A stretch of 64,000 bases of DNA, from NCBI GenBank assembly GCA_016791475.1, contig JAEUWI010000005.1, positions 1 through 64,000 on the forward strand, read 5' to 3'. The translations under genes and the position numbers were made by a program. The notes below the pieces were generated by a model, which saw only the letters and a list, made by a program, of their open reading frames with translations, had not been told where the DNA came from and searched no databases. The DNA is from Candidatus Hydrogenedentota bacterium. GTDB taxonomy: Bacteria; Hydrogenedentota; Hydrogenedentia; Hydrogenedentales; JAEUWI01. Below are positions 3,349 through 61,034 of the stretch, piece by piece (positions within the stretch are counted from its first letter, which is position 1; each line of letters opens with the position of its first letter).

Positions 3349-3382
3349 ATCGCGGGCGACCCGGTAATGGGTCGCCCGCGAT
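3349..3382 (+). terminator. 14-bp perfect hairpin after the glycosidase-like gene
   Basis: 3349-3362 pairs with 3369-3382 around ggtaat, seven bases after the stop codon. There is no T-run; the right arm runs directly into a 9-bp tandem array. Confidence 0.7.
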
Positions 3383-3533
3383 GGGTCTTATGGGTCTTAT
3401 GGGTCTTATGGGTCTTATGGGTCTCATGGGTCTCATGGGTCTCATGGGTCTCATGGGTCTCATGGGTCCTTTAGGTCCTTTAGGTCCTTTAGGTCCTTTA
3501 AGTCCTTTAAGTCCTTTAAGTCCCTGAAGTCTC
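3381..3533 (+). repeat. 9-bp tandem array, 17 units
   Basis: Units drift stepwise: atgggtctt x4, atgggtctc x5, atgggtcct x1, ttaggtcct x3, ttaagtcct x2, ttaagtccc, tgaagtctc. Block-wise homogeneity suggests local expansion of successive variants. It would translate to MGL/LGP/LSP repeats, but no gene signals support translation. A related array lies at 60908-61020. Confidence 0.9.
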
Positions 3534-3575
3534 TATTCGTAATTCATAATTCACAATTCATAATTCTCAATTCAA
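3534..3575. repeat. 7-bp array (aattcNN) overlapping the end of the DGC gene
   Basis: Six heptamers with core aattc start at 3534, 3541, 3548, 3555, 3562 and 3569. On the minus strand they read TGAATTN or AGAATTN, and the last one contributes the TGA stop codon (3572-3574) of the neighbouring gene. Confidence 0.8.
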
Positions 3576-10354: not shown

Positions 10355-10649
10355 GTTGCAGGCACGCCGGAGCAAGGCCCTGCCGCAACGGCCAAGTCAA
10401 TCCCCGCATTTCAGGGAGAATCTTCCGTGAAATTCCGTGCCCTTCCGTGGTCAATTTTTTTTGCCACTGATGATTTTGCACGCAAAGGCGCGAAGGCGCA
10501 AAGCTAATTGGGACGCCAGATCAGCGCGTACCGCCTGGATTGCAGGGGGGATCATGGTTGCAGAAGGCTTCCTTCCCCCGTTCTTTCTCTGTGTCTTCGT
10601 GGCCTTCGTGGTGAATCTGTGGGTTCCGCGCGGAAAACCCACCCGTACT
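10355..10649. repeat. Intergenic region with 10-bp-phased TTCCGTG/TTCGTG repeats
   Basis: No gene seen. TTCCGTG occurs at 10423, 10433 and 10443, exactly 10 bp apart, then GGTCAA and eight T. A relaxed set (TCTGTG, TTCGTGG, TTCGTGG, TCTGTGG) spans 10588-10622. Between them lies a cacgcaaag/gcgcgaag/gcgcaaag series (10478-10503) that recurs near 52360-52386. Confidence 0.75.
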
Positions 10650-48121: not shown

Positions 48122-48511
48122 TCACACAACTCCAATATCGTATACGCGGCAAGCGAAGGAAACGGTCACTTTATGCAGGTTACAAGCGGCTAACCCCAAC
48201 GATCAATCACCGCCGGGCGCAAATCAAGCAGAATAAATTCCACCACAAGCGCAAACGTCTGGGAGTTCCGTTCGGAACATCCAAGATGCGTCCTAACCTG
48301 ATAACAGGGCCTGATTCTTCCGGCCTGAAAGCTGCACTGGCCCTTCGGGCCGAAAGCAAACGGGCACAATAGCAAGTATCGAATAACAGGAGTCTCGCCT
48401 CTTATTCGCGCTGATTCTACGCTTATTCGCGGTTCAATTTTTCAGATCTCGGTCACCCACCGCGCAATGACGCGCCTTCACAATCGCGCAATGACCCCGA
48501 CGCCGGACTCG
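48122..48511. other. Repeat-rich intergenic region between gspK and gspL
   Basis: No gene. 48322-48358 is a shortened copy of the REP-like unit found at 55001-55082, including its last hairpin (48339-48351: GGCCC-TTC-GGGCC). 48402-48441 holds two ATTCGCG motifs 21 bases apart ending GGTTCAATTTTT, which matches the ends of the phased repeats elsewhere. Confidence 0.7.
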
Positions 48512-49907: not shown

Positions 49908-49970
49908 TCAACTGTCAACTGTCAACTGTCAACTGTCAATTGTCAATTGTCAATTGTCAATTGTCAATTG
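49908..49970. repeat. 7-bp tandem array overlapping the gspJ stop codon
   Basis: TCAACTG x4 (49908-49935), then TCAATTG x5 (49936-49970), without interruption. On the minus strand these read CAGTTGA and CAATTGA; one unit provides the TGA of gspJ (49964-49966). Confidence 0.92.
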
Positions 49971-52228: not shown

Positions 52229-52624
52229 TACGCCAGGTATGCTTTCCGAAAATCCTTCGATTACGCCGAAACCCGTACACATAGGTAACGTGCGCCCGCG
52301 AAATCCGCTGACAGGGCTCTTTGCGCCTTAGCGCCCTTGCGTGCGCTGTTCGATGGATTCGCACGCAAAGACGCTATGACGCAAAGGACCGCAGGAACCA
52401 GCGGGACATCACAAATCTCGCGCCAGCAGCGCTTCTCTTTCCGTGAATTTCCGTGTCATTCCGTGGTCAAGAAAGGGAATTTGACCACGGAACTACACGG
52501 AACTACACGGAAGGAAGGGGACACGTCCATTTGACCGTATCTCATTCGTGTGAATTCGTGTCCATTCGTGGTTCAATTTTTCCCGGAGGCGTCCGTATTG
52601 TCGATGCCATCCATGGTCAACATC
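52229..52624. repeat. Repeat-rich intergenic region between the second gspG-like gene and gspH
   Basis: No gene. 52319-52386 is a loose inverted series of gcgcctta/gcgccctt/gcgtgcg and cacgcaaag/acgcaaagg. 52439-52512 is a large inverted repeat: three TTCCGTG 10 bp apart (52439, 52449, 52459) facing three CACGGAA 10 bp apart (52486, 52496, 52506). 52544-52582 has three ATTCGTG 10 bp apart, then GGTTCAATTTTT. Confidence 0.8.
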
Positions 52625-53113
52625 CTAATACTGTGCGGCCTCATTCGTAAGCTCATCACTGCGGATATCGGCATCCTTGCCGTCGCCGCTTGGTTCACCG
52701 TCAGCACCCAGTGACACTATTACATAAGACTTCGAATCCAACTTCAAATAAAGGTAAGGAGTGTCCCACGGATCCACCGGGATCACTTTCGCATTCATAA
52801 TGGGCTCACCACTCGGCGGCAATAACAACTGATCGAGGTTTTCGGGCAATTCGCCAAACTTCATCTTGTACGCCGTAAGCGCCGTATCAAACTGCTTGAT
52901 CTGCGCCTTCGCCGCCGCTATCTCGCCTTGCTCGAATTGCGTCCAGCGATAAAACAATATATCGAACAATCCCAGAGCGCCCAGGCAGATACAAGGTGTC
53001 ACAACGACTATCACCGCGATACGCTCAAGAGCGGTAAATCGGTCCGTCTCGCTCTGATCGCCCAAGACGTCGCCTCGCACGGTCAGAAAGCTGTTTGGGA
53101 GCGACTCAAACAC
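52625..53113 (-). CDS. Second GspG-like protein with altered prepilin signal
   Basis: 162 residues. From about residue 60 it is a close copy of the neighbouring GspG (AAAKAQIKQFDTALTAYK; PPSGEPIMNAKV; PVDPWDTPY; VSLGADGEP; ELTNEAAQ), so it arose by duplication. The N-terminus has changed: TDRFTALERIAVIVVV keeps Phe +1 and Glu +5 but has Arg, not Gly, at -1, and the hydrophobic stretch contains Pro and two Cys (VTPCICLGALGLF). Prepilin peptidase normally needs Gly -1, so the protein may stay uncleaved in the membrane. The start is GTG 53113 with no strong ribosome site; a GTG at 53080 is possible. Confidence 0.78.
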   Translation of the reverse strand: MFESLPNSFLTVRGDVLGDQSETDRFTALERIAVIVVVTPCICLGALGLFDILFYRWTQFEQGEIAAAKAQIKQFDTALTAYKMKFGELPENLDQLLLPPSGEPIMNAKVIPVDPWDTPYLYLKLDSKSYVIVSLGADGEPSGDGKDADIRSDELTNEAAQY

Positions 53114-53246
53114 AGCGCTGTATTCTCACTATCTGTGGAAATCGGTGTGAATCTGTGGGAAAACTCTCATTCAATTGTCTTAAAGTCCCGCTGGACTTTT
53201 CCTTCCGTGCTTTTCCGTGTCATTCCGTGGTCAACACTTTTTCTCG
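53114..53246. repeat. Phased repeats between the two gspG genes
   Basis: ATCTGTG / ATCGGTG / ATCTGTG stand at 53131, 53141 and 53151. TTCCGTG stands at 53203, 53213 and 53223, followed by GGTCAA. All are 10 bp apart. No other feature seen. Confidence 0.8.
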
Positions 53247-53678
53247 TTACTGCGCCGCCTCGTTCGTGATATCGTCGCTCTTGATATCCGCATCCACATC
53301 TTCTCCGCCCGGTGCGCCGTCCGCGCCCAGCGACGTGATCACGTACTTCCGCGATCCTTCAAGCTGGTACTGATAGGGATTGCCCCAGGGATCCAGCGGC
53401 ACTTCCTTCGCGTTCATGATCGGATCACCACTGGGCGGACTGATCAGCGCGCCCAGATCTTCGGGGAACTTCTTGAACTTTATCTTGTACGCCACCAGCG
53501 CCGTGTCGAACTGTTTGATCTGCGCCTTCGCCGCCGCGATGTTGCCCTGGTCCACGGAGCCCAGCACGTTGTAGCCCACGATGGCCGCGAGCACGGCGAT
53601 GATCGAAATCACCACCATCAGTTCCACCAGGGTAAAGCCGCCGTCGTTGCGGGTGCGCCGCTTCTTGTTCGTGTTCAT
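53247..53678 (-). CDS. gspG: GspG major pseudopilin
   Basis: 143 residues, normal size. Prepilin signal RTRNDGGFTLVELMVVISIIAVL: Gly -1, Phe +1, Glu +5. The GspG core follows: QGNIAAAKAQIKQFDTALVAYKIKFKKFPEDL, PPSGDPIMNAKEVPLDPWGNPYQY, then VITSLGADGAPGGEDVDADI, the Asp-rich calcium-site region of GspG. It polymerises into the type II pseudopilus shaft. Start 53678 or 53696 (both ATG); 53678 gives the more usual leader length. Confidence 0.95.
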   Translation of the reverse strand: MNTNKKRRTRNDGGFTLVELMVVISIIAVLAAIVGYNVLGSVDQGNIAAAKAQIKQFDTALVAYKIKFKKFPEDLGALISPPSGDPIMNAKEVPLDPWGNPYQYQLEGSRKYVITSLGADGAPGGEDVDADIKSDDITNEAAQ

Positions 53679-53697
53679 CGCTCTCTTGCTCCTCATG

Positions 53698-54927: not shown

Positions 54928-55000
54928 GGGATCTTCTTCGTTTCCTGTCCGCCCGGTTGTTCTCGCCGCGCCAACCGCCGCGACGCCGAGCAACTGCGCT

Positions 55001-55082
55001 GCCCTTTCAGGGCGATATGATTTGGGGTTCCGTAGACCCTGGGCGTTGCCCAGGGCTGAAAGCTGCGCTGGCCCTTCGGGCC
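55001..55082. repeat. REP-like unit of three consecutive hairpins
   Basis: Hairpins GCCCT-TTC-AGGGC (55001-55013), CCCTGGGC-GTT-GCCCAGGG (55037-55055) and GGCCC-TTC-GGGCC (55070-55082), each perfect with a 3-nt loop. The first and third are preceded by CTGCGCT. It lies in the gspE-gspF gap. Confidence 0.82.
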
Positions 55083-55088
55083 GAAGAA

Positions 55089-60522: not shown

Positions 60523-60838
60523 TGCTACCTCTCGTATCGGGCTTGCGGTATACGACATTCCCGAAGCCAAACTGGGCCTCGGTTTCGATTCCGCCCCGCC
60601 GCAACATGTTGTGATACCACAACTAACGCCGGTATGGGCGCGCGGGTTGACAGGAAAGACGGCACTGAAGGCCGCCCGATCAACGGACGCTACAACCGGC
60701 CTCGGTACACACCTGCCCCATGTTCGCTACGGGCGCGTAGTGTAGCCCATCCCCAGCCGACAACGCAAAAGCACAGGAACCCCCGGAACCCCCCGGATCG
60801 GCATGCGGAAGGGCAGGTTTCGCGCGAAGCAGGCGGTT

Positions 60839-60887
60839 GTAGGCTGTAGGCTGTAGGCTGTAGGCTGTAGGCTTCAGGCTTCAGGTT
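60839..60887. repeat. 7-bp tandem array GTAGGCT
   Basis: GTAGGCT x5 followed by TCAGGCT and TCAGGTT, in perfect 7-bp register. Confidence 0.9.
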
Positions 60888-60907: not shown

Positions 60908-61020
60908 GGGACCCAAGGGACCCAAGGGACCCAAGGGACCCAAGGGACCCAAGGGACCCATAAGACCCATAAGACCCATAAGACCCATAAGACCCATAAG
61001 ACCCATAAGACCCATAAGAC
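60908..61020 (-). repeat. 9-bp tandem array, about 13 units
   Basis: Read on the minus strand it starts with about seven GGGTCTTAT-type units and changes to GGGTCCCTT (about six). The leading unit is the same as in the array at 3381-3533, in the same orientation to the upstream gene. Confidence 0.9.
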
Positions 61021-61034
61021 CCGCCACCCCCCTC

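Follow-up and report, generated by a model that had tools for sequence, protein, structure and literature searches.

Short arrays of three 7-bp units, which recur between the genes of a Candidatus Hydrogenedentota bacterium, are in our judgement probably the inverted termini of small elements that contain, when complete, a single gene of the GxxExxY protein family. Here, we describe these triplets in a 64,000-nucleotide stretch of one contig of this genome (referred to as the window), their distribution around the GxxExxY gene in the phylum and across GTDB, the agreement of the ends with each other and with the protein, and a second, unrelated gene family that is bounded in the same manner.

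Triplets of 7-bp units lie between genes

The window holds six exact triplets with a 10-bp step (at 10423, 52439, 52486 on the minus strand, 52544, 53131 and 53203; Table 1), all of which had been listed in an earlier note on this DNA and all of which are real when read from the sequence. The looser sets that the same note placed at 10588 and 48402 also exist, but are of a different kind, the one at 10587 having 8/9 steps and the one at 48404 a damaged middle unit. With up to two mismatches allowed, the doublet pattern matched the window 17 times, against a mean of 4.70 and a maximum of 11 in shuffled sequence, and a comparison of the window with Rfam gave no match.

Table 1. Repeat arrays in the window that are assigned to element ends, with positions counted from its first base.
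Feature	Position	Strand	Remark
TTCCGTG triplet, steps 10/10	10423..10449	+	solo element end; GTCAA and a T-run follow
CTCTGTG/CTTCGTG/CTTCGTG triplet, steps 8/9	10587..10610	+	other subfamily; read from sequence
Degenerate ATTCGCG triplet (ATTCGCG/ATTCTAC/ATTCGCG), middle unit damaged	48404..48430	+	followed by GTTCAATTTTT; read from sequence
(TCAATTG/TCAACTG)x9 heptamer array	49908..49970	+	heptamer found at both ends of this genome's four-helix-bundle gene L309; class assignment probable
CTTTGCG-type triplet, steps 8/8	52319..52341	+	left arm of inverted pair
CTTTGCG-type triplet, steps 8/8	52364..52386	-	right arm, paired with 52319..52341
TTCCGTG triplet, steps 10/10	52439..52465	+	left arm of hairpin
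TTCCGTG triplet, steps 10/10	52486..52512	-	right arm of hairpin, paired with 52439..52465
ATTCGTG triplet, steps 10/10	52544..52570	+	followed by GTTCAATTTTT; flavour of the ends of this genome's GxxExxY element L036
ATCTGTG/ATCGGTG/ATCTGTG triplet, steps 10/10	53131..53157	+	flavour of the ends of this genome's GxxExxY element L035
TTCCGTG triplet, steps 10/10	53203..53229	+	solo

Across the genome (7.7 Mb, 96.2% complete), the doublet pattern TTCCGTGN{0,7}TTCCGTG has 80 matches, of which 73 have a spacer of three bases, that is a 10-bp step, six a spacer of two bases and one a spacer of five; its reversed control has none. The 10-bp step thus dominates the TTCCGTG doublets and spacing is not spread evenly over 8-12 bp. 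A strict triplet of WTYNGTG units occurs at 102 places (0 in the reversed control), and the units inside one triplet are nearly always of a single type. The placement suggested by the earlier note, between genes rather than equally inside them, holds as well: all ten window sites lie outside called genes, though 88% of the window is called coding, and across 50 loci of this genome, 67% called coding, 74 of 78 distinct triplet sites are outside called ORFs and four inside, as judged by a simple GC3-based gene caller made for this analysis.

The 10-bp step had been taken to set each unit on the same face of the helix, as for cooperative protein binding. The exact spacing and the intergenic sites stand, and so does the likelihood that some protein recognises the units; the helical step does not, because spacing ranges from 8 to 11 bp and is set per subfamily, related elements having steps of 8/8, 9/8, 9/9, 10/9, 10/10 or 11/9, each fixed within an element. 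Helical phase was therefore rejected as the defining feature.

A GxxExxY gene sits between inverted triplets

In this genome, each of the six GxxExxY genes (TIGR04256/PF13366) is flanked by triplets, on either side and no more than 600 bp away, the end types being CTTTGCG with 8/8 steps, CTTCGTG (9/8-9/9), CTCCGTG (8/8-8/9), ATTTGCG (10/10), ATCTGTG (10/10) and ATTCGTG (10/10). Of 68 genomes from the phylum, 58 carry the gene, and its 98 matches in 95 loci have consensus-based triplets on both sides in 57 cases, on one side in 20 and on neither in 21; together these loci contain 192 triplets, against two in reversed sequence. Of the 21 genes classed as having none, 12 were inspected by eye and several proved to have inverted arrays of other units, for example ATCCTGT. 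A test that is free of any consensus, in which each upstream flank was compared with its own reverse-complemented downstream flank, gave a median score of 57 against 29 for mismatched flanks (n=91, p=6.5e-34).

The association extends well beyond the phylum. Across GTDB, 80 loci taken from named genomes in many phyla have 84 triplets in the 31.1 kb that lie within 200 bp of the GxxExxY gene (2.70/kb), against 46 in the roughly 565 kb that lie 0.4-5 kb from it (about 0.08/kb), and a consensus-blind detector showed the same fall in density away from the gene. A triplet is found on at least one side in 55 of these loci and on both sides in 31, the remaining 25 having none by the consensus used; two loci are archaeal (Methanothrix and Methanoperedens). 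HMM matches under 330 bp were left out, and three of the 80 loci were missed by the HMM. The similar strings that the earlier note mentioned for unrelated environmental genomes do occur there.

All four plasmid GxxExxY loci that were inspected carry triplets, on both sides in three by the detector and on one side in the fourth by eye. Two plasmid genes lie inside core operons in the sense direction, one between fabD and fabG (Sphingomonas) and the other after radA (Bacteroides). In viral contigs, nine stretches matched the pattern and none was confirmed, and one GxxExxY query protein had no match among phages. At one locus, L083 (G054:C223), two tandem GxxExxY genes are separated by about 640 bp, and each has triplet ends of its own.

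By profile, fold and its catalytic D...(D/E)xK residues, GxxExxY belongs to the PD-(D/E)XK nuclease superfamily, and it is likely, as predicted from these features, to be an active nuclease. The PF13366 profile matched all 20 GxxExxY proteins scanned. An AlphaFold model (pLDDT 97.3) found its best structural match, among the structures compared, in SSO0001 (Z 9.5, rmsd 4.5, 100 residues aligned), which we take to be a Cas4-family protein; the next matches, with Z below 8, were Holliday-junction resolvases and restriction enzymes and may reflect a common arrangement alone, and Foldseek by itself returned nothing below E 0.001 for the model. At the sequence level, a Cas4 profile matched the proteins weakly (E 0.004-0.005) and the best match in the PDB had an E of 0.14. 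The motif's G, E and Y, like the catalytic D and K, do not vary in either of two alignments (20/20 and 38/38 proteins), of which the structure-mapping one covers 38 of the 80 GTDB loci, and the catalytic E is kept in at least 90% of the sequences in both.

The ends agree closely with each other. Both ends share the same spacing in 91.8% of 85 elements (18% when permuted, with a maximum of 33%), with 0.14 base differences per unit between one end and the other, against 1.91 when permuted. They also agree with the protein, as protein distance correlates with unit distance (Mantel r=0.463, with none of 2000 permutations as high) and nearest protein neighbours have a common unit in 55.6% of cases against 10.6% (n=126 genes for both). 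On a protein tree built without the C-terminal 14 residues, from which L157 and L131 were left out, the first base of the unit changes six times (100 shuffles give no fewer than 28), the unit itself 52 times (no fewer than 81) and the spacing 44 times (no fewer than 70).

Part of this agreement can be read at the C-terminus, where a two-residue insert goes with C-initial units and is missing with A- or T-initial ones, and where a GHYPG..EIERI-like sequence occurs in all seven genes with TTCCGTG ends, the flavour of the window. The table of C-terminus type against unit (90,4 / 2,29; Fisher p=8e-22; 125 genes, L157 dropped) is descriptive, its classes having been tuned on the same data; among its six exceptions, L097 and L118 look misassigned and L061 and L131 are probably one locus. 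The whole-set Mantel and tree tests are independent of these classes. The covariation of unit and protein type shows that gene and ends travel together, although common descent of the two could also give such covariation without recognition. None of the six GxxExxY genes of this genome has the TTCCGTG-associated C-terminus, so the main flavour of the window has no partner gene in this assembly (96.2% complete).

Gene-less copies, their fate between species and a proposed element

Gene-less inverted pairs also occur in this genome, 11 with ATTCGTG and three with ATCTGTG ends, the ends being near-identical and the interiors 61-330 bp long. A plain internal-deletion model fails to explain these pairs because their interiors are mostly unrelated, with few matches that fall largely in nested repeats; some pairs hold nested elements of other flavours. 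Where triplets are adjacent within 600 bp (54 rows with near neighbours), the order is '-+' in 20 cases, '+-' in three, '--' in two and '++' in one. TTCCGTG copies are mostly solo or form short '+-' hairpins, and the window pair at 52439-52512 is predicted to fold as DNA into a strong hairpin (-28.8 kcal/mol, z -9.0). The copies in the window have no gene between their ends.

The interval at 52.18-53.27 kb of the window, with its seven triplets, corresponds to 431 bp without triplets in the congener G035, and the same syntenic interval has one weak 8/10 match in G036 and a different, CTTCGTG triplet in G037; the window copies are thus not conserved in place between species. Two adjacent T2SS protein G-like pseudopilin genes lie at 52625-53113 and 53247-53696, and in G035 the syntenic interval has no room for the first of them. 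The absence of the triplets at syntenic sites weakens the model of operators or terminators and bears on any reading of the triplets as stationary regulatory sites, be they operators for a cooperative protein or boundary or terminator signals. Such sites would have the exact spacing, the intergenic placement, the T-run that follows some copies and the stable hairpin in their favour. Yet the window's triplets are missing from G035, with a single weak match in G036 and a different triplet in G037, spacing varies by subfamily and one gene family is bracketed far above background, and we regard regulatory sites as very improbable. The stationary binding sites of the earlier note hence give way to triplets that bracket a gene in inverted orientation, form gene-less pairs and are absent at the syntenic place in congeners.

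A single site followed across a genus gives a further view of presence and absence. The GxxExxY element of Flavobacterium sp. 7A, which occupies the entire gap between a stop and a start codon, was followed in 199 genomes of the genus, 138 of which matched, and its site was inspected in 34 species including the query. In seven of these the GxxExxY gene lies between CTTTGCG-type ends, and in five a four-helix-bundle gene lies between inverted arrays of another unit; two species have 46 bp only, two others have 84-96 bp without obvious repeats by eye, and most of the remaining species have gene-less inverted repeats. The seven filled sites may represent one old insertion that was kept or lost. 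Neither among the 34 Flavobacterium species nor for the gene-less pair L220 of the present genome against its congeners, where a single flank aligned and there was no empty site, was a target-site duplication resolved, there being no clean pair of empty and filled sites with alignable intergenic flanks.

We think there is a good chance that these triplets form the termini of a family of very small mobile elements, with the gene-less copies as non-autonomous derivatives. A complete element measures about 0.5-1 kb and consists of a triplet, a gene for a GxxExxY PD-(D/E)XK protein of about 130 aa and the same triplet inverted, each triplet comprising three 7-bp HTYNGYG units at steps of 8-11 bp and a short conserved tail such as GGTTCAA. 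The nuclease would recognise the three units through a subfamily-specific surface of its own and would cut or nick the folded end, a hairpin or cruciform being the likely substrate, as proposed for REPINs, after which a new intergenic site would receive the element by copying or pasting, either in cis or in trans. The non-autonomous derivatives, which the GxxExxY nuclease may mobilise in trans, would comprise solo triplets, inverted pairs of 0.1-0.4 kb and short hairpins, among them that at 52439-52512. The build of the elements, the agreement of their ends with each other and with the protein type, their spread between genes and their presence or absence from species to species are observed here; the steps from the action of the nuclease on the ends to transposition and the movement of gene-less copies in trans are what we infer.

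The strongest rival turns this order round, with the arrays as older interspersed repeats that serve as targets and are invaded by GxxExxY as a homing-type endonuclease. Small PD-(D/E)XK homing endonucleases exist, the gene-less copies far outnumber the genes (102 exact triplets against six), and triplets can occur in genomes without the gene; genomes that lack it have a median of two 10/10 triplets (n=10), against four in those that have it (n=58; p=0.04; Spearman 0.51). Homing fits poorly, in contrast, with the tandem gene units of L083, which have their own ends each, with a flavour and spacing that track the protein tree, and with the position of the gene between whole triplets, no array being split in the loci inspected by eye. 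We therefore hold homing to be unlikely and prefer the mobile element.

A second gene family with heptamer ends, and relation to known systems

The same architecture, with 7-bp units, is found in a second, unrelated gene family, the four-helix-bundle (S23) genes (TIGR02436, PF05635), which are present in 53 of the 68 genomes of the phylum. At 30 such loci, inverted 7-bp arrays cluster at the gene: the first 200 bp of its flanks (11.6 kb in all) contain 49, the stretch from 200 to 400 bp (11.2 kb) five and the roughly 57 kb farther out none. Within 200 bp of GxxExxY genes (31.1 kb) there are no period-7 arrays and 87 arrays with steps of 8-11 bp. On plasmids, the detector found a heptamer array in five of eight four-helix-bundle loci, all cyanobacterial, with arrays on both sides in three (L323, L324 and L326), and most of the others have related runs by eye; these plasmid loci lie among protein genes, not in rRNA. 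In L324, from a plasmid of Anabaena sp. 90, the four-helix-bundle gene, flanked on either side by heptamer arrays, is located inside a type I-D CRISPR operon, with cas6 and cas4 as its neighbours.

Judging by its heptamer, the window array at 49908-49970 is a probable end of this second class. The TCAATTG/TCAACTG pattern has 127 forward and 155 reverse matches genome-wide with up to three mismatches, against 67 and 45 in the control, a figure raised by the near-palindromic nature of the pattern. Further period-7 arrays in the window, TGTAGGC x5 and ATTCATA x6 (60838-60880 and 3535-3574), are probably ends of the same class. Period-9 arrays at 3381-3531 and 60908-61022 (ATGGGTCTC x10, GTCCTTTAA x7, GGGACCCAA x6 and GACCCATAA x8) make up a third repeat type, and a palindrome-rich repeat of about 93 bp at 54993-55085, with dozens of copies in the genus that in G035 are often in '-,+' pairs about 123 bp apart, is another REPIN-like family.

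The two periods also bear on the idea that slippage or gene conversion makes the units, with no dedicated enzyme and with both gene families as tolerant bystanders. One study suggests slippage as the source of bacterial heptamer arrays (PMC4692102), and another gives heptamer copy numbers that differ between Coxiella strains (PMC4990558). Slippage, however, does not make inverted pairs that flank a specific gene or keep the spacers between units, nor does it explain why one gene family has period-7 arrays and another arrays of period 8-11, and we rate it the least probable of the readings considered.

On the preferred reading of mobile elements, opinion is evenly balanced as to whether the two families make up a general class of minimal mobile element in bacteria and archaea, with one gene of about 110-130 aa and inverted ends of at least three short tandem units, reached independently by at least two unrelated proteins (Cas4-like GxxExxY with 8-11 bp steps and four-helix-bundle S23/Avd-like with 7 bp). 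If so, many 'simple' intergenic repeats would have arisen as gene-less ends, and the intervening sequence (IVS) of 23S rRNA would be one special insertion of the four-helix-bundle kind. The four-helix-bundle half would offer an origin for the heptamer arrays of cyanobacteria and perhaps of Xanthomonas; for such arrays, a 2015 study (PMC4692102) generally found no connection with insertion sequences or transposable elements.

A search of PMC by family names, exact strings and keywords, with the subscription literature outside its scope, found no earlier description of a link between triplet ends and the GxxExxY gene. The exact triplet strings had no match in PMC, the ATTCGTG matches among those listed look unrelated, and the keywords led to nothing relevant beyond the work on REPINs, IVSs and heptamers; a PMC paper that names the GxxExxY domain does so only as the neighbour of a reverse transcriptase. 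A family that is widespread yet scarcely mentioned in PMC would thus gain a setting and a testable substrate, a common and unexplained intergenic repeat of environmental genomes would be accounted for, and the many natural pairs of protein and site would form a panel for reading a recognition code.

Among nucleases, GxxExxY is like Cas4 and other PD-(D/E)XK enzymes in fold and catalytic residues and differs in its size of about 130 aa and in sequence, as the weak PDB match indicates. The recombination-promoting Rpn nucleases (PDDEXK_2/Transposase_31) are also of PD-(D/E)XK type and are tied to recombination or transposition, but are a separate family from GxxExxY, and we know of no triplet ends in Rpn. 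The heptamer class resembles a known insertion, the IVS of Coxiella 23S rRNA, described as a selfish sequence of about 430 nt with an S23p ORF, terminal inverted repeats that form a stem and three tandem heptamers before the ORF (PMC4990558). ORF family (PF05635), inverted repeats and tandem heptamers all match; the IVS, in contrast, lies inside rRNA genes, whereas the present elements lie between protein genes and the triplet class carries another gene.

With MITEs and their parent insertion sequences, the elements share terminal inverted repeats and the existence of gene-less copies of 0.1-0.4 kb that have the ends of a gene-bearing form (L220-L233 against L035 and L036); they differ in having no known transposase, no target duplication seen and interiors that are mostly unrelated. 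A close parallel in habit is the REPIN-RAYT system (PMC3116915). It too has inverted doublets that lie outside genes in high copy number and fold to hairpins; a genome has several flavours, every flavour has its own cognate gene beside it, and gene-less copies far outnumber the genes. Here, however, the gene encodes a PD-(D/E)XK protein (PF13366, 20/20) rather than a tyrosine (Y1) transposase, and each end is a triplet of 7-bp units at steps of 8-11 bp rather than one REP palindrome. The lifestyle of these elements resembles that of REPIN-RAYT systems and MITEs, but their enzyme and their tandem-unit ends have no counterpart in either.
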